From assembly GCF_002443295.1 (NCBI RefSeq), contig NZ_BAOS01000038.1, positions 1-64,000 on the forward strand: a stretch of 64,000 nucleotides of DNA, given 5' to 3'. The position numbers and the translations under genes are program-made. The notes beneath the pieces were generated by a model that was given only the letters and a program-made list of their open reading frames with translations, had not been told where the DNA came from and ran no database searches. The stretch is from Candidatus Scalindua japonica. Lineage in GTDB: Bacteria; Planctomycetota; Brocadiia; Brocadiales; Scalinduaceae. Shown here one piece after another: positions 20,464 through 39,080 of this stretch; the stretch's first letter is position 1, and each line of letters begins with the position of its first letter.

Positions 20464-21510
20464 CTATTTTGCAGTAGTTTCCTTTGCCGTTACAGCCTTA
20501 AATATTGAAATCAGCATACTGACAAATATAATTGTCCATCCAATGTAAGCGAGATAGATAAAATATTTTGAAATGTTTGCAATAAACGGAATTTCTAAAG
20601 CCTGTGAAAGTTTATATGTACAGGCCGTATACATACCCAATGGAAAGACCATGCCCCAATCTAGCGGCGTATACTTAAACTGTTGTTTACGTACAAAGAA
20701 CTTCCAGATTCCTAAAATTATTAAAAGCGGTATCCACCATGTACCGAATGACCAGAAAAACAGTGTAAATCCCTTTGTGAATGTTAAGAAATCAGTAAAA
20801 ACTCCACCTATTTTAGGGATGGTTAAGCATATTATTGAACCTGCTAGAGTGGTGATGGCAATTGCCCCCATATTAATCCAGTAAGGCGGTATCAATGCCT
20901 CCGGAACTAGCTTGAAGAATACCAATCGATAGAACAGCAGTGTAATCAAAATTACATAGAGGAATGCTCCGATCATCCACCACACAAGTGAAGAAAACAA
21001 CACAAAACTCCCACCGCTTACAAATTCAGATGCAAGTGCCGCACCGAGAACTGCCACTGATTGTGTTCCCACGGTAGCTATCAGCCAGCCTCCGTGTATA
21101 ACTGATTCCGGACCTTCCTCGCACTTGATAAAGAGTATGCTGAACGCGAATAACGAAACAATAACCCAGAGAAGGATACCAAAATACCAGAAAATTTTTG
21201 CGATTTCCGGTTGATTTACTATAGTAATAAATTGTGCACCCAGCACATTTGTCGCCGCAACTGTAGTAAAAAAAACAAGACTTAGTTTGGCATTGCAAAG
21301 GTCTTTATATAAGTTATCCCAGAACATAAATGCACGTAGTATCTGAATAGGCAATATAATCGCATATGCAACAATATTTATATAAAAAAGCGCGTATGCA
21401 ATATCGGTAAAACCTAAAAGTTTGGATGCAATGGAAATTATGCCCGTAGACATTACCATCGCAAAATAGGCGGGGTGCAACCCTTTGATTGTATTACTAA
21501 TAACGTTCAT
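20464..21510 (-). CDS. TDT-family (TehA/Mae1/SLAC1-like) membrane transporter
   Basis: 348 residues with about ten transmembrane helices filling the chain. It opens with LHPAYFAMVMSTGIISIA, a hallmark of the tellurite-resistance/dicarboxylate transporter family (TehA, malate permease Mae1, plant SLAC1 anion channels). Those proteins move dicarboxylates or act as anion channels gated by a pore Phe. The substrate cannot be fixed from sequence. It is a single gene; no tehB-like methyltransferase is adjacent. Confidence 0.88.
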   Translation of the reverse strand: MNVISNTIKGLHPAYFAMVMSTGIISIASKLLGFTDIAYALFYINIVAYAIILPIQILRAFMFWDNLYKDLCNAKLSLVFFTTVAATNVLGAQFITIVNQPEIAKIFWYFGILLWVIVSLFAFSILFIKCEEGPESVIHGGWLIATVGTQSVAVLGAALASEFVSGGSFVLFSSLVWWMIGAFLYVILITLLFYRLVFFKLVPEALIPPYWINMGAIAITTLAGSIICLTIPKIGGVFTDFLTFTKGFTLFFWSFGTWWIPLLIILGIWKFFVRKQQFKYTPLDWGMVFPLGMYTACTYKLSQALEIPFIANISKYFIYLAYIGWTIIFVSMLISIFKAVTAKETTAK

Positions 21511-21726: not shown

Positions 21727-21747
21727 CATGGGGACAACCCCCATGTT
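21725..21747. repeat. REP-like palindrome, left of RAYT gene
   Basis: AACATGGGGACAACCCCCAT plus GTT forms a near-perfect hairpin. It overlaps the last codons and stop of the RAYT gene at 21746. The same core (GGGACAACCC) recurs at 22455, 39031, 39061 and 40838. Confidence 0.8.
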
Positions 21748-22414
21748 ATTGGTTTTGCTTCTTGTTGCGAGGTCTTCCTCCCTTCTTACGGCTTAAATCT
21801 CGGTTAAGAATTCCTCTTAGTTTTTCAAAGAAATTTACGCCACCTAATGGCCTACCTGTTGAAGTTGCTTTTCTGATATTATTTTCATTTTTCTCATCAA
21901 GTATTAATTCCATATATTGTTCTCTATCTTCTTTTGACCATTTGTGAAGATTAATCTTTCCATCATGTTCACCTTTTATATGTTCACTGGCACTTGACCA
22001 GTCCCACAGCTCAGGCTTTTTAACAATTCCTGCCCTTACAGGATTCATCTCTATGTATTTTACAACTGCCCAATAATATTCATTTTTATCAATAGGGCAC
22101 GAAAAATAGCGATTTTGCCATAGCCTCCCGCTTCTACTATATTTCATATTAAAATATTGGGCATATCGAAAAGTAGTACCATGCAAACATTGACCTAAAC
22201 CATCTCTGCTGTTTGGTGAAATAAGCAAATGAAAATGGTTGTCCATTAAACAGTATGCCCCTACTTCTGATTCTGTTTTGTTTGTCAATTCATTAAGAAG
22301 CTTTAGAAAGTGATGACGGTCTTCATTGTCAATAAATATTTCTAACTTATTTGTTCCTCTTTGAGTAATATGATGAGGATATTGTGGAACCACTACTCTT
22401 GCAATTCTAGGCAT
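21746..22414 (-). CDS. REP-associated tyrosine transposase (RAYT, Y1/IS200-like)
   Basis: 222 residues of the Y1_Tnp family. It begins MPRIARVVVPQYPHHITQRG and has the HUH pair NHFHLLISP (about 60-67) and the catalytic-Tyr helix VVKYIEMNPVRAGIV (Tyr about 119). The form and the flanking palindromes mark it as a RAYT, a single-copy relative of IS200 transposases that acts on genomic REP hairpins. REP copies lie at both ends (21725 and 22455, opposite orientation), so gene plus REPs form one unit of about 750 bp placed between the TDT transporter and the CNB-AAA protein. Confidence 0.92.
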   Translation of the reverse strand: MPRIARVVVPQYPHHITQRGTNKLEIFIDNEDRHHFLKLLNELTNKTESEVGAYCLMDNHFHLLISPNSRDGLGQCLHGTTFRYAQYFNMKYSRSGRLWQNRYFSCPIDKNEYYWAVVKYIEMNPVRAGIVKKPELWDWSSASEHIKGEHDGKINLHKWSKEDREQYMELILDEKNENNIRKATSTGRPLGGVNFFEKLRGILNRDLSRKKGGRPRNKKQNQ

Positions 22415-22445: not shown

Positions 22446-25043
22446 TCAACAATAATATGGGGGTTGTCCCCATGTTTGTGAGATGAAAAACAGAATGATA
22501 TAAATGATGGTTAATACAAATGGTACTATTCCCTGGATTGCAAATATTTGAAGATGTCTCTTTGGATTGATTTTATTCTGAATAATTTTATAAATGAGAT
22601 ATTCGGTTATGAGTAGACCAGTGAGAACAAAGAATACTTGAAAGGTTGTTGTGAAATTAATATCCAGTTGAAAGGTATTGAATATCATTAAAGTCCCTTT
22701 TACAGTGCCAAAGACCTCAATAGAATAAAGTGATATGAACCCGAATAAGATAAGTGGGATGATTGAATAACCAAAGAGTTTAATGTGCCAAATTACTGTC
22801 TCTTTTGATATCAGTGCGGCAATGTAGTTTGTTGTAATGTTCAGGGTTAGTGAAAAAAATATGGAAGCGGAAAATATGAAAAGATAATTTGCCTGGATAG
22901 TATCTGCTATTGAAAAGATTTCAGCAACTAATAAACCGGAAAGTATAATTGAAAATATGGCTCCGGCCAGAGAAGCCTGCCTTAATGAACTTATTCCTGC
23001 ACCGGGGATTCGGAGATTTAAGCGTGCCGCATTGTGTGTACAGTTTTTAATGCAATTCAGACAGACTTTGCAATTTCTGTTATCCGACAGGAATTGCAGG
23101 TGCAAAAACATTGGACACGGGTTTGCCCTTTCAGAACCTTTAAAACAATCATGTGTTGTGCATATTGTAGTACATACGTTCTTGTTTGCACGTATTTCTA
23201 TCATAGAAGACATGGAAAACAGCGCAGCCATTCCGCCCATAGGGCATAGGTGACGACACCATGCAGACTTTTCAAAAATCAAGTCAACAATTATGGCTAA
23301 AAACAAAATACTGAATATCAGGTAGGCTGTCTTATTTACAGATGAGGCCATATGAGTATATTCTTCTAAGAATAAAATAGATGTAAACCCTGTACCCATA
23401 ATCCAGGCATCATATTCTTTAATAAAATCTGGAACCGGTATTTTTAAATTACGTTTATTGAGAAATCTGGTAATAGAGTATATTGGACATATTCCGCATC
23501 CAAAACGGGCCGCAAAAAGAAACAGTACAAATAAGAGAGGTATGCCTAACTGCCAGAGAAGAATCAAAGTAATATTTTTTCCACCTATTGAAATATCAGA
23601 TTGTATTATGAGCATGCAAAGGAGTGAAATGAAAATTATCAATGTGGTGGCCTTGAATACGGAAATAATCCTGGGGCTTTTGCAAAATCTTTCGATCAGA
23701 GATATGTTTAAAAGGTTGACCCTTTTTTCATCCTCAATACCTGTTGGATTACCCAGGAAGATTACTTCTTCTTCAATGTCTGTGTCTGCTTTTGAAAGCG
23801 TGATTGCTCGCTCAATCACATTTTCCAGTTCCTTTACATTTCCGGGATAGTCATATTTTAGTAATTTGTTTGTGGCGCCATTTGAAAATCTTTTTGTCTG
23901 TGTGTGCCTTATTTTATCTATTCTATCAACAAAATGTTCCATAAGAGATGGAATGTCTTTTTTATGTTCACATAGTGGTGGGATTTCCAGTTTCTGGCTA
24001 CTTAACATACGGAACAATGGCTGGTACAGTTGCTTCTGCATTAAGCTGATATCTGTAGTGGTAACAATGATCCTGACATTTGAATGTACCAGTTTGCTTC
24101 CTCCTATTCTCAGGAATTCCCCGGTTTTCATAAATTTTAGAAAAATTTTCTGAATGTTTAAAGACATGTTTTCTATGTTTTTGATGATCAGTGTTCCATT
24201 ATTTACCAATTCCAGATATCCAATTCTTTTTTCTTCCTCGGTGGTAAATGTAATTTTTTCCTTTCCGAACAATTCAGACTCGACTTGATCAAGTTGTCTT
24301 CTTTCATTATGGATGGGTATTCTTTCCATCCTTCTCTCTTTTGGTAGTACTATTTCAAAAACAGGGGATTTCGCCTTTGCGCTGTCTGTATGTATCTTTC
24401 TGGAAATAATCTCTTTTCCCGTACCTGGTTTACCGATGATGGTGACAGGAGCATCATTTTCTGAGAATTTTTTGGCTTCCTTAAATACACTCTGCATTTT
24501 TTTAGATTTCCAGACTACACCGCTATACTGGTAATTCTTTGTTTTCTGAAGGTATCTGCTTAAAGCAATCTCATATTCTTTCAGACCAATATTTTTTATG
24601 TTTTGATTTTCAATTCGTTCGGAAAGCAATTTATTAAAATGTTTATTAATATGGGGGTTTTTTGAGATAATGTCATCAAAATCACTCTTTGTGATAGAAT
24701 AAAGAAGAGAATCTTCATTTGCTTTTACTGTGGCGCAACAAGGTTCACCGGTAAGCAGAGACATTTCACCAAAACATTTCCCATTTGGTATAGTTGCAAT
24801 AATAAATTCTTCGTGTTCTGATTCAGATACAACTCGGGCGCTTCCCGTTTTGATCAAGTAAAGGCGGGCCCCGACCGAACCTCTCTTTATAACAATATTA
24901 TCTTTGGAGAAGGAGTTAATTTGGATCTTTGCAGAGATTTTTTCTAATGATTCTCTAGGCAGCTCCTTAAAGAGAGAAACTTTCCCCAAGAATTCCATTA
25001 TATCTTCACTGTTTTTTTCGAATATCGTTAGTTTCTTTTCCAT
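22446..25043 (-). CDS. Cyclic-nucleotide-binding / degenerate sigma54-AAA / membrane polyferredoxin fusion
   Basis: 865 residues. Domain 1 (about 18-140) is a CNB domain with GKCFGEMSLLTGEP; the usual phosphate-binding Arg after GEP is Cys (GEPCCATV). Domain 2 (about 180-420) is sigma54-activator-like AAA: Walker A GKPGTGKE (204-211) is intact, but GAFTGA is replaced (EKITFTTE) and Walker B reads TLIIKNIE instead of TLFLDEI, so remodelling of sigma54 is unlikely; no DNA-binding domain follows. Domain 3 (about 455-865) has eight or so membrane helices with NapH/NosR-type cysteines CGICP (516-520), CRHLCP (596-601), and a ferredoxin cluster CKVCLNCIKNC (658-668). It follows the cyclase gene by 13 bp. 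The C-terminus is encoded by a REP. Confidence 0.85.
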   Translation of the reverse strand: MEKKLTIFEKNSEDIMEFLGKVSLFKELPRESLEKISAKIQINSFSKDNIVIKRGSVGARLYLIKTGSARVVSESEHEEFIIATIPNGKCFGEMSLLTGEPCCATVKANEDSLLYSITKSDFDDIISKNPHINKHFNKLLSERIENQNIKNIGLKEYEIALSRYLQKTKNYQYSGVVWKSKKMQSVFKEAKKFSENDAPVTIIGKPGTGKEIISRKIHTDSAKAKSPVFEIVLPKERRMERIPIHNERRQLDQVESELFGKEKITFTTEEEKRIGYLELVNNGTLIIKNIENMSLNIQKIFLKFMKTGEFLRIGGSKLVHSNVRIIVTTTDISLMQKQLYQPLFRMLSSQKLEIPPLCEHKKDIPSLMEHFVDRIDKIRHTQTKRFSNGATNKLLKYDYPGNVKELENVIERAITLSKADTDIEEEVIFLGNPTGIEDEKRVNLLNISLIERFCKSPRIISVFKATTLIIFISLLCMLIIQSDISIGGKNITLILLWQLGIPLLFVLFLFAARFGCGICPIYSITRFLNKRNLKIPVPDFIKEYDAWIMGTGFTSILFLEEYTHMASSVNKTAYLIFSILFLAIIVDLIFEKSAWCRHLCPMGGMAALFSMSSMIEIRANKNVCTTICTTHDCFKGSERANPCPMFLHLQFLSDNRNCKVCLNCIKNCTHNAARLNLRIPGAGISSLRQASLAGAIFSIILSGLLVAEIFSIADTIQANYLFIFSASIFFSLTLNITTNYIAALISKETVIWHIKLFGYSIIPLILFGFISLYSIEVFGTVKGTLMIFNTFQLDINFTTTFQVFFVLTGLLITEYLIYKIIQNKINPKRHLQIFAIQGIVPFVLTIIYIILFFISQTWGQPPYYC
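22455..22477. repeat. REP-like palindrome, right of RAYT gene
   Basis: ATATGGGGGTTGTCCCCATG plus TTT is the reverse complement of the left REP apart from end bases. It lies inside the reading frame of the 865-residue protein and encodes its last residues (QTWGQPPYY). Confidence 0.8.
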
Positions 25044-25056
25044 ATATTTTGCACAG

Positions 25057-27459
25057 TTACTTTTCTGTTAATATGTAAACACCATCCCAATTTTCCGGAG
25101 GAGGATTCTGTGTGTATGCTTTACATCTTTCCAAATATGTTAATGCTGGTCCATCATGAGGGACCTTGACCACCGCTTTTTGAAACATGTCTATTGCGTT
25201 CTGCCACTCTTTTTTTTTATACGCTATCAGCCCCTCTTCATAAAGTTCTAAAACTATACGTTTCGCATTTGATATTTCTCCCTTCCGGCCAATGAGTTCA
25301 TATACTTTGACCGGTTTCTTCTTTCCGATAACCCGGATCATATCCAACTCTCTCGCCTCTATATGGTCACTGGCCAGTTCATAAGTTCTTTCACTTATCA
25401 TTGTATAAGTTCCATAATACTTATTGGCGGCTTCCAGTCTGGCACCGAGATTGACCTCATCTCCGATTACGGTATATGAAAGCCTGTTAGTTGAACCTAC
25501 ATTTCCCACGAGTACACGGCCAGTGTTCAGGCCGATCCTGGCCTTTATCTGGAGCCGTCCTTCCTTCTTAAATTTTGTGTTCAACTCACATATTCTTTTT
25601 TGATTATCAATGGACGCCAGGCATGCCTTTAGCGCGTGGTCAGGTTGCTCCAGTGGTGTCCCAAACGCCGCGACGATTGCGTCTCCGATGTATTTGTCCA
25701 GAAATCCTCCATAGCCAAGTATCTGGTCTGTCATCTCACTTAAATATTCATTAAGAAGTTCTATTAATTCGGACGGTTTCAGCTTTTCTGAAATAGAGCT
25801 GAATTTTTCAATATCGGAGAAGTATACGGTGACCTCCCTCTCTTCACCACCGAGCTTTATATCTTCGGGTTCTTTCAATATTTCATGTACTACCTTCGGA
25901 TCCATAAAGTTCTCAAACGCGGTTTTGACCCCTTTTCTCAGTTTTTCTTCGGACATGAAGCGATACAAAATAATTGAAGAAAAACATATAATTATTGTAA
26001 TACCCGGGTACGTTACGTTCAACCATGTCCCATCATTTACGAATCTTTCATAAACATAATAATAATACCCGGCCCATAAAAAGATACTTGCCACAGCCCC
26101 CCAGATTGAGGGAAGCAGTGGCAGGACTATGCCCATTACAAGGCTTATGCAGATGATTGCGATTATGTCATGAAGCACTTCCCACTCTCCTCTTACCACA
26201 AACTTTTCATGTAATATATTTTCTGTAATTGTAGCATGCTTTTCTACGCCCGGTGTCTGCGATGAAAATGGGGTCGCTATGTAGTCGCCCAGACCAAATG
26301 CAGTTGCACCTAGAAAAACTATTTTATTGTTGAATGCATCAGGAGATACCTTACCTTCTATGACATCACAGAACGAAAAATATTTGAACGTGGATTCAGG
26401 GCCGCAGTAGTTGATCATCATCCGGTTCCAGCTATCTATGGGAATTTCAGTCTCCTTAAAGACCAGCTTTTCTGTCAGCACCAGCTTCAGCTCGCCATAA
26501 TCGATATTTTTATATATTCTGGCCGCCTGGACACCAAGCGGGGGATAAAATTCATTTTCAAAATGAATAGCCATATACTCACTCCTGACAATTCCGGAAT
26601 AATCAACATTCGTATCCACAAATCCCTGATAAGTTACCCACTCCGCGAACGGATCAATCATATTGATGACCCCAACGGCCGTCTTTGGCCTGTAAAGTGC
26701 CAGAATATTATTCATTATCTCTTTTCGGTTTTTAGAAGTTAGTACTGTTAATTGATTACCATCAGGGCTCTTCTTCTTGCTACTTATATCCCCTCCTACC
26801 AGGACCGGGAAATAAGCGGATTCTTTCAGTAATTCTTTGCCGAGGGATGAGACCTCTTTACCCGTAAATCCGGTAGTGTTTCTTTGTGTCATGTAAACAA
26901 AATCAATCGCGGAAATAATATCCATTCCACTATCCATCACCGCTCTTCTAAAAGCCTCTTTGAGCCTGCTATCTTCATCAAATGTTTTTCGTTTTTCATA
27001 TAACGCAGACAGAAACTGCTCTTTATCGGTCTCTTCAGGCAGGTTTTTCCACAGAGGGGACTCATTGTAATCTCTGGTCAGTATGTCAAAGGTCTTCAAA
27101 ATATCAGTGTTTTGTTCCTCAGAGTAGATAACATCCAGAGCAAGTAGCTTCGCTTTCGCTGCTGATACTTTATCAACTAATTCTGCGATATAACGTCTTG
27201 ACCACGGGTAACGTCCCAGTTTTTCTATGCTGTTTTCATCTATTGCGACTATTACAATTTCGTCACCGGTGTCGCGCTTTCCCCTTATTTGAAATCTCAT
27301 ATCCATGGATTTCTGTTCAATGGCTTTGAAAATCCTCAGCAGCTTAAACGTATCACGGTCTTCAAGATTATAGATTGTAATGACAATAATTAAGATAAAG
27401 ATTGAAATAAGGATTGATATGGTTTTTTTGCCGGGCTTTATACTTTTAATAAAACTCAT
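25057..27459 (-). CDS. CHASE2-sensor class III adenylyl cyclase with TPR tail
   Basis: 800 residues. An N-terminal membrane helix (about 14-30) leads into an extracytoplasmic CHASE2 domain (about 45-405; VAIDENSIEKLGRYPWSR start), then three membrane helices (about 425-500), then a class III cyclase domain (about 545-735). Metal-binding aspartates are in YFSDIEKFS and YIGDAIVAAFG; Lys in LDKYIGD and Asp in VIGDEVNLGARL suggest ATP as substrate. A TPR-like tail (about 745-790) follows. It should convert an envelope signal to cAMP. The next gene carries a CNB domain, suggesting a sender-receiver pair. FecR genes, common neighbours of CHASE2 cyclases, lie in the divergent cluster. Confidence 0.92.
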   Translation of the reverse strand: MSFIKSIKPGKKTISILISIFILIIVITIYNLEDRDTFKLLRIFKAIEQKSMDMRFQIRGKRDTGDEIVIVAIDENSIEKLGRYPWSRRYIAELVDKVSAAKAKLLALDVIYSEEQNTDILKTFDILTRDYNESPLWKNLPEETDKEQFLSALYEKRKTFDEDSRLKEAFRRAVMDSGMDIISAIDFVYMTQRNTTGFTGKEVSSLGKELLKESAYFPVLVGGDISSKKKSPDGNQLTVLTSKNRKEIMNNILALYRPKTAVGVINMIDPFAEWVTYQGFVDTNVDYSGIVRSEYMAIHFENEFYPPLGVQAARIYKNIDYGELKLVLTEKLVFKETEIPIDSWNRMMINYCGPESTFKYFSFCDVIEGKVSPDAFNNKIVFLGATAFGLGDYIATPFSSQTPGVEKHATITENILHEKFVVRGEWEVLHDIIAIICISLVMGIVLPLLPSIWGAVASIFLWAGYYYYVYERFVNDGTWLNVTYPGITIIICFSSIILYRFMSEEKLRKGVKTAFENFMDPKVVHEILKEPEDIKLGGEEREVTVYFSDIEKFSSISEKLKPSELIELLNEYLSEMTDQILGYGGFLDKYIGDAIVAAFGTPLEQPDHALKACLASIDNQKRICELNTKFKKEGRLQIKARIGLNTGRVLVGNVGSTNRLSYTVIGDEVNLGARLEAANKYYGTYTMISERTYELASDHIEARELDMIRVIGKKKPVKVYELIGRKGEISNAKRIVLELYEEGLIAYKKKEWQNAIDMFQKAVVKVPHDGPALTYLERCKAYTQNPPPENWDGVYILTEK

Positions 27460-38956: not shown

Positions 38957-39037
38957 AACAGGTATTGATATTAGGGTTTGCATAAAGGCCGTGTCAACAA
39001 ACTGTCCACCTCGCGCACACTTGGCATAGGGGGAAAC

Positions 39038-39079
39038 ATAGGGACAACCCCCATATAAAAATATGGGGGTTGTCCCTAT
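39038..39079. repeat. Perfect 19-bp inverted repeat of two REP copies
   Basis: Arms 39038-39056 (ATAGGGACAACCCCCATAT) and 39061-39079 are exact complements around AAAA. This is a REP doublet (REPIN-like) forming a very stable hairpin. Confidence 0.85.
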
Positions 39080-39080
39080 A

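Follow-up and report, generated by a model that had tools for sequence, protein, structure and literature searches.

The window analysed here, a stretch of 64,000 nucleotides from Candidatus Scalindua japonica, carries two adjacent genes encoding a cyclase (P0002) and a protein (P0001) in which a cyclic-nucleotide (CNB) domain, a sigma54-activator-type AAA+ domain and an Fe-S membrane part are fused. The genes and features of the locus are listed below, all on the minus strand, with residue numbers referring to the fusion protein.

25057..27459, minus strand: P0002, CHASE2 - TM - class IIIb adenylyl cyclase - weak TPR, 800 aa
25044..25056, minus strand: 13-bp gap from the cyclase stop to the fusion start
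22446..25043, minus strand: P0001, CNB / pseudo-AAA / Fe-S membrane fusion, 865 aa
24654..24998, minus strand: CNB domain, aa 16-130 (PF00027; PKG/PKA-R/SthK-like CNBs in the PDB)
24717..24782, minus strand: phosphate-binding cassette (PBC) region, aa 88-109, core KCFGEMSLLTGEPCCATVKA; Arg replaced by C102, followed by C103
24009..24521, minus strand: sigma54-activator-type AAA+ domain, aa 175-345; Walker A kept, Walker B DE replaced by KN, no GAFTGA
23784..23969, minus strand: AAA lid, aa 359-420 (PF25601); sensor II Arg replaced by Lys404
23028..23576, minus strand: Fe-S membrane core, aa 490-672; 12 Cys, matched by NapH models
22470..22976, minus strand: C-terminal membrane helices, aa 690-858 (helices in the structure model, hydropathy)
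20464..21510, minus strand: SLAC1-family anion channel gene (Pfam), a conserved downstream neighbour

These coordinates bear out the sequence-only reading, which had placed a CHASE2 cyclase 13 bp upstream of the fusion, and the two genes are likely to be carried on one transcript. A motif scan of the locus for promoter-like sites returned no excess over shuffled sequence. The SLAC1 neighbour is 75-85% identical in the loci L038, L040, L042 and L044, and it is uncertain that it forms part of the system. A Y1/RAYT-like transposase ORF (21746-22414, minus strand) lies between inverted REP-like palindromes (CATGGGGACAACCCCCATG; 21727-21745, plus strand, and 22456-22474, minus strand), the second of which falls inside the 3' end of the fusion gene, where it codes for the strain-specific tail WGQPPYY. 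One further copy only of this palindrome is present in the genome, together with a degenerate pair at 39037-39080.

The fusion protein matched the Pfam models PF00027 (cNMP_binding, 5.9e-19, aa 44-129), PF00158 (1.5e-29, aa 178-345) and PF25601 for the AAA lid (1.6e-17), Fer4_5 being slightly below its cut-off with the full protein and slightly above it with the isolated C-terminal part. Together with the NapH-model matches presented below, these assignments agree with the initial description of CNB, sigma54-type AAA and Fe-S membrane parts in one open reading frame. Other proteins with the same three-part order were sought with two patterns derived from the Fe-S part, and 48 full-length members from several phyla were obtained; the family counts given here are lower bounds because only these two patterns were used. 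The order CNB-(GAF)-AAA-FeS is constant in 48/48 of the full-length members aligned, whose hosts are Scalindua, Anammoxibacter, Desulfobulbales, Desulfobacterales, Desulfomonile, Myxococcota MAGs and Poribacteria. Such conservation rules out a chance or mis-called fusion. Orthologues are 68-78% identical with a dN/dS of about 0.1-0.3 in every domain, which indicates purifying selection on the architecture. No orthologues were found in which the parts are separate genes with unrelated roles, and of the three parts only the Fe-S module was found on its own, in Bacillus, Mesobacillus, Desulfosporosinus and Bacteroidota.

The family consists of three Scalindua/Anammoxibacter types and a large sulfate-reducer branch. 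Type 1 (854-867 aa), the subfamily of the window, is full length in six species, the window included, and the copy of genome G004 is interrupted by a stop, close to a contig end. Type 2 (883-898 aa) is present in Scalindua sediminis, G011 and Anammoxibacter, and type 3 (1056-1065 aa), which carries an extra GAF domain, also occurs in the genome of the window itself, on C14. Regarding the neighbourhoods, the type 2 gene (L067:1777-7977, L068:1791-8004) is divergent to an operon encoding Rieske, NAD(P)-oxidoreductase/Fer4_20, cytochrome b and multihaem cytochrome proteins, which resembles anammox bc1-type complexes. Type 3 genes (L082:4251-7533) are divergent to a conserved set of genes, among them those for an FHA-trypsin protein and for two proteins that match no Pfam model; several genomes also have an HD-GYP gene convergent to the type 3 gene. 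When the neighbour genes of the Desulfobulbales members were compared, no consistent partner was found.

The structure model of the AAA domain superimposes on NtrC1 (1ny5) with a Z of 27.2 over 246 aligned residues at 2.1 A. Like the bEBPs NtrC1, NifA and PspF, the fusion protein has the AAA+ fold, the lid and a Walker A motif (GKPGTGKE); type 1 and 31/48 members overall retain its lysine, and 15 have an arginine there. Unlike them, it lacks the Walker B acids, GAFTGA and the HTH, has a lysine in place of the sensor II arginine and has gained a membrane redox part. The 'DE' of the Walker B sequence GTLFLDE aligns with the 'KN' of GTLIIKN in the window, and across the family the aspartate is found in 9/48 members and the glutamate in none (0/48). 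GAFTGA, aligned to ITFTTE in the window, is absent from all members tabulated, the sensor II arginine is kept in one family member only, and in every member the membrane Fe-S part stands in the place of a C-terminal HTH. The loss of GAFTGA and of the Walker B acids had been read correctly from the window, and the absence of the glutamate in all 48 members means that the AAA domain is dead across the family and not decayed in one strain. It is nonetheless maintained, as the dN/dS of about 0.1-0.3 in every domain shows; this purifying selection and the family-wide glutamate loss dispose of strain-specific decay. Judging from these motifs, the type 1 AAA domain may still bind nucleotide, and neither ATP hydrolysis nor contact with sigma54 would be expected of it.

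The core of the Fe-S membrane part displays the motifs CGICP (516-520), WCRHLCP (595-601), C624-X3-C-X4-C-X9-C643P and C658-X2-C-X2-C-X3-C668. The 12 cysteines are invariant in 58/58 sequences, stand-alone Fe-S relatives included, and these sets fit 4Fe-4S clusters, CX2CP and CX3CP being situated at predicted membrane helix ends and C-X3-C-X4-C-X9-CP and CX2CX2CX3C in a soluble insert. The best named relative is NapH (models at 5.6e-9 and 4.9e-8, with 35.5 bits against a curated cut-off of 234), and the stand-alone relatives matched the NapH model at 2e-6 to 4e-11. As for the label 'polyferredoxin, NapH/NosR-like' proposed earlier, the matches to NapH models are significant, but they lie far below the curated cut-offs, so that these scores argue for NapH homology and against membership of the NapH/MauN family. 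When the model of the Fe-S part was compared with solved structures, no meaningful match was obtained (Foldseek best E 0.19, VIA-align best Z 6.9).

Like NapH, NosR and RdhC (PceC), the fusion protein has a membrane module with CX3CP and 4Fe-4S cysteine sets, the NapH match extending over aa ~508-679. Whereas these proteins have two CX3CP motifs, it has one (596-601) preceded by a CX2CP (516-520) as its first motif, and it differs further by the cysteine set C-X3-C-X4-C-X9-CP, by additional C-terminal helices and by the cytosolic CNB-AAA head. It also differs from NosR and RdhC by the lack of an FMN-binding motif, a motif search for [ST]G[AS]T.[ST] having found none in the protein. NapH-like modules are modular electron carriers, and NapH, NosR and RdhC have been shown or proposed to be quinol-fed carriers (PMC8238504, PMC5928378). 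From the NapH-like homology, we infer that the Fe-S part of the fusion would transfer electrons. The AAA losses and the 12 invariant cysteines together therefore define a protein in which a pseudo-AAA regulatory head sits on an intact Fe-S membrane module. Next to the Fe-S gene, a convergent ApbE flavin transferase gene is present in two sulfate reducers only (L065:5058-6086, L107:1563-2669). The stand-alone Bacteroidota homologues (L115:2441-2980, L116) directly follow a gene for a 179-aa RsbW-like HATPase, which hints at another pairing of the Fe-S module with signalling proteins.

Regarding the CNB domain, Pfam, alignment and PDB matches agree on a CNB fold with an FGE cassette, and the CNB region of the structure model gave a Z of 19 to that of AKT1. 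These traits are shared with PKA-R, PKG, SthK and CRP, from which type 1 departs by the replacement of the PBC arginine with a cysteine and by an output that is an Fe-S membrane protein and not a kinase, channel or DNA-binding domain. The PBC of the fusion reads FGEMSLLTGEPCCATVKA, and Cys102 is thus at the position of the phosphate-binding arginine; the arginine, the lack of which the sequence-only reading had pointed out, is indeed replaced by Cys102, followed by Cys103, in 6/6 type 1 proteins aligned. This invariant Cys-Cys pair is found only in type 1, and C90 is common to type 3. No stretch of the CNB is more conserved than the PBC, in which 18/22 columns are invariant in type 1 and dN is 0.035, compared to 0.146 for the whole domain. 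Across the family the arginine is lost in 34/48 members and kept in 14/48, among them type 2 (NPREAS), Desulfobacterales (GEPRSAS) and Poribacteria, and it is therefore probably ancestral. These alignments make it plausible that the CNB of the family originally bound cNMP. For the type 1 domain, cAMP is a plausible candidate ligand. The genome of the window encodes twelve CNB domains, of which seven, all outside the fusion, have the PBC arginine. Some of its CNBs are fused to membrane transporters (L126, L129, L131), which, with families judged by eye, are Na+/H+ antiporter-like, RND/MMPL-like and ZIP-like with two CNBs lacking the arginine.

The cyclase matched CHASE2 (4e-55), Guanylate_cyc (1.1e-23) and, weakly, TPR in Pfam, and it aligns with solved cyclases such as CyaB (3r5g). 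Like CHASE2 class III cyclases and the catalytic domain of P. aeruginosa CyaB, it has all six catalytic and specificity residues, namely the metal-binding pair D549/D593, the adenine-type specificity pair K589/T663, N670 and R674, which are identical in all cyclase orthologues aligned, and from these residues the enzyme looks active. What sets it apart from other CHASE2 class III cyclases is its genetic pairing with a redox fusion protein. The cyclase gene is directly upstream of the type 1 fusion in 7/7 species, with a gap of 5-22 bp in most and a larger one in G012 and G002; by contrast, in flanks of up to 8 kb around all other family members, no gene matching the type 1-linked cyclase was found. 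The linkage to CHASE2 cyclases thus holds for type 1 and does not extend to the wider family. In S. arabica, the fusion is reduced to a remnant and the SLAC1 gene stays, and a cyclase orthologue was looked for there and not found; in G011, the cyclase is kept and a search for a type 1 fusion found none. The seven species do not amount to seven independent events because the pairing has one evolutionary origin, and synteny extends in part to the nearby SLAC1 and TPR genes. The pairing is real, of single origin and set in a partly conserved neighbourhood. Three class III cyclases are encoded by the genome of the window, and at least one such enzyme is encoded somewhere in 29/30 host genomes, so that its presence fails to separate family members.

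We propose, at somewhat less than even confidence, that the two genes form a signalling module in which a cytosolic signal gates NapH-like membrane electron transfer. The CHASE2 domain would sense an extracytosolic cue and the class IIIb cyclase would then produce cAMP, a step that its sequence supports. In the weakest step, cAMP, or another ligand fitting the Arg-less pocket, would bind to the CNB of the fusion and change its conformation. The helical linker would transmit this change to the AAA+ domain, which would serve as a relay or as an oligomerisation unit. As NapH homology and the 12 invariant cysteines suggest, the passage of electrons between quinone pool and [4Fe-4S] clusters could thereby be gated, and elsewhere in the family a head of this kind may gate such a module in response to different signals, type 3 with its GAF domains being an example. 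The constant order in 48 proteins, the family-wide loss of the Walker B glutamate, the cysteines conserved in 58/58 sequences, the constraint on every domain and on the PBC above all, the 7/7 pairing, the intact cyclase, the fusion remnant in S. arabica, where no cyclase orthologue was found, the PBC arginine kept in 14/48 members, the modular nature of NapH-like carriers and the type 2 genes divergent to a Rieske/cytochrome b operon speak for such a module. Against it stand the cysteine at the PBC arginine position in type 1, the G011 cyclase without a type 1 fusion, the interrupted G004 copy, the single origin of the pairing, the seven Arg-bearing CNBs elsewhere as possible cAMP targets and the lack of a solved-fold match for the Fe-S part. 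The control of membrane electron transfer by cNMP, put forward from the window sequence, is thus supported in part, by the conserved order, the dead AAA domain, the invariant cysteines and the paired cyclase, and is weakened by the missing PBC arginine of the cyclase-linked type and by the wider family having no linked cyclase.

The signal could also flow in the reverse direction, which we consider unlikely: the Fe-S module would sense the quinone or redox state, and the AAA and CNB domains would pass it on by touching a partner protein, the cyclase in type 1, altering cAMP for the other CNB proteins of the genome. An Arg-less CNB may fail to bind cAMP, seven Arg-bearing CNBs, some fused to transporters, are available elsewhere, and NosR-type proteins were initially regarded as regulators; yet within the domain conservation remains highest in the PBC pocket, a linked cyclase is missing in most family members and the cyclase already has its own sensor, CHASE2.

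An improbable alternative of similar standing is that the CNB binds a ligand other than a cyclic nucleotide, C90, C102 and C103 forming a thiol, metal or NO/redox sensor or the domain a nucleoside pocket, with the cyclase pairing serving another purpose. The change of the PBC arginine and the next residue to an invariant Cys-Cys only in type 1 would fit, as would the precedent of the trypanosomatid PKA regulatory subunit, whose phosphate arginine is replaced likewise and which binds purine nucleosides and not cAMP (PMC10959531). This precedent is only partly matched because the second substitution, the glutamate that replaces Ala202 and fixes the nucleoside, corresponds to Ser95 in the fusion; moreover, C90 is common to type 3.

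It is less probable still that the CNB and AAA domains are purely structural, as an assembly or oligomerisation scaffold of a constitutive NapH-like electron carrier. An AAA domain devoid of catalytic residues, a PBC arginine lost in 34/48 members and an Fe-S module that stands alone in Bacillus and Bacteroidota suit a scaffold, but the strong constraint on the PBC, the intact cyclase partner and the extra GAF sensors of type 3 do not. A membrane-tethered transcription regulator acting via sigma54 or sigma70 is hardly credible, for although the AAA domain folds like those of sigma54 activators (Z 27) and VpsR, a relative with a degenerate AAA domain, is among the fold matches, GAFTGA and the Walker B glutamate are missing and membrane helices replace the DNA-binding HTH in every member.

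Returning to signal-gated electron transfer, its extension to the whole family is more tentative: a messenger domain would gate, via a pseudo-AAA+ domain, a quinone-linked Fe-S carrier, which in Scalindua might be driven by its own cyclase through a pocket whose PBC arginine has become a cysteine pair. No description of a CNB / sigma54-AAA / Fe-S membrane protein was found in the open-licence papers searched, in line with the earlier remark that no described system of exactly this form was known. The individual parts are known ones; that literature describes neither their combination and its breadth nor an AAA domain that is dead throughout the family. The known targets of second messengers are kinases, channels and transcription factors, and to our knowledge the respiratory control of sulfate reducers and anammox bacteria is poorly known. 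If the proposal is true, second messengers would have a new output with immediate energetic consequences, the direct control of a membrane electron carrier, and sulfate reducers and anammox bacteria alike would have conserved an inert relay recruited from the AAA+ motor of transcription activators.
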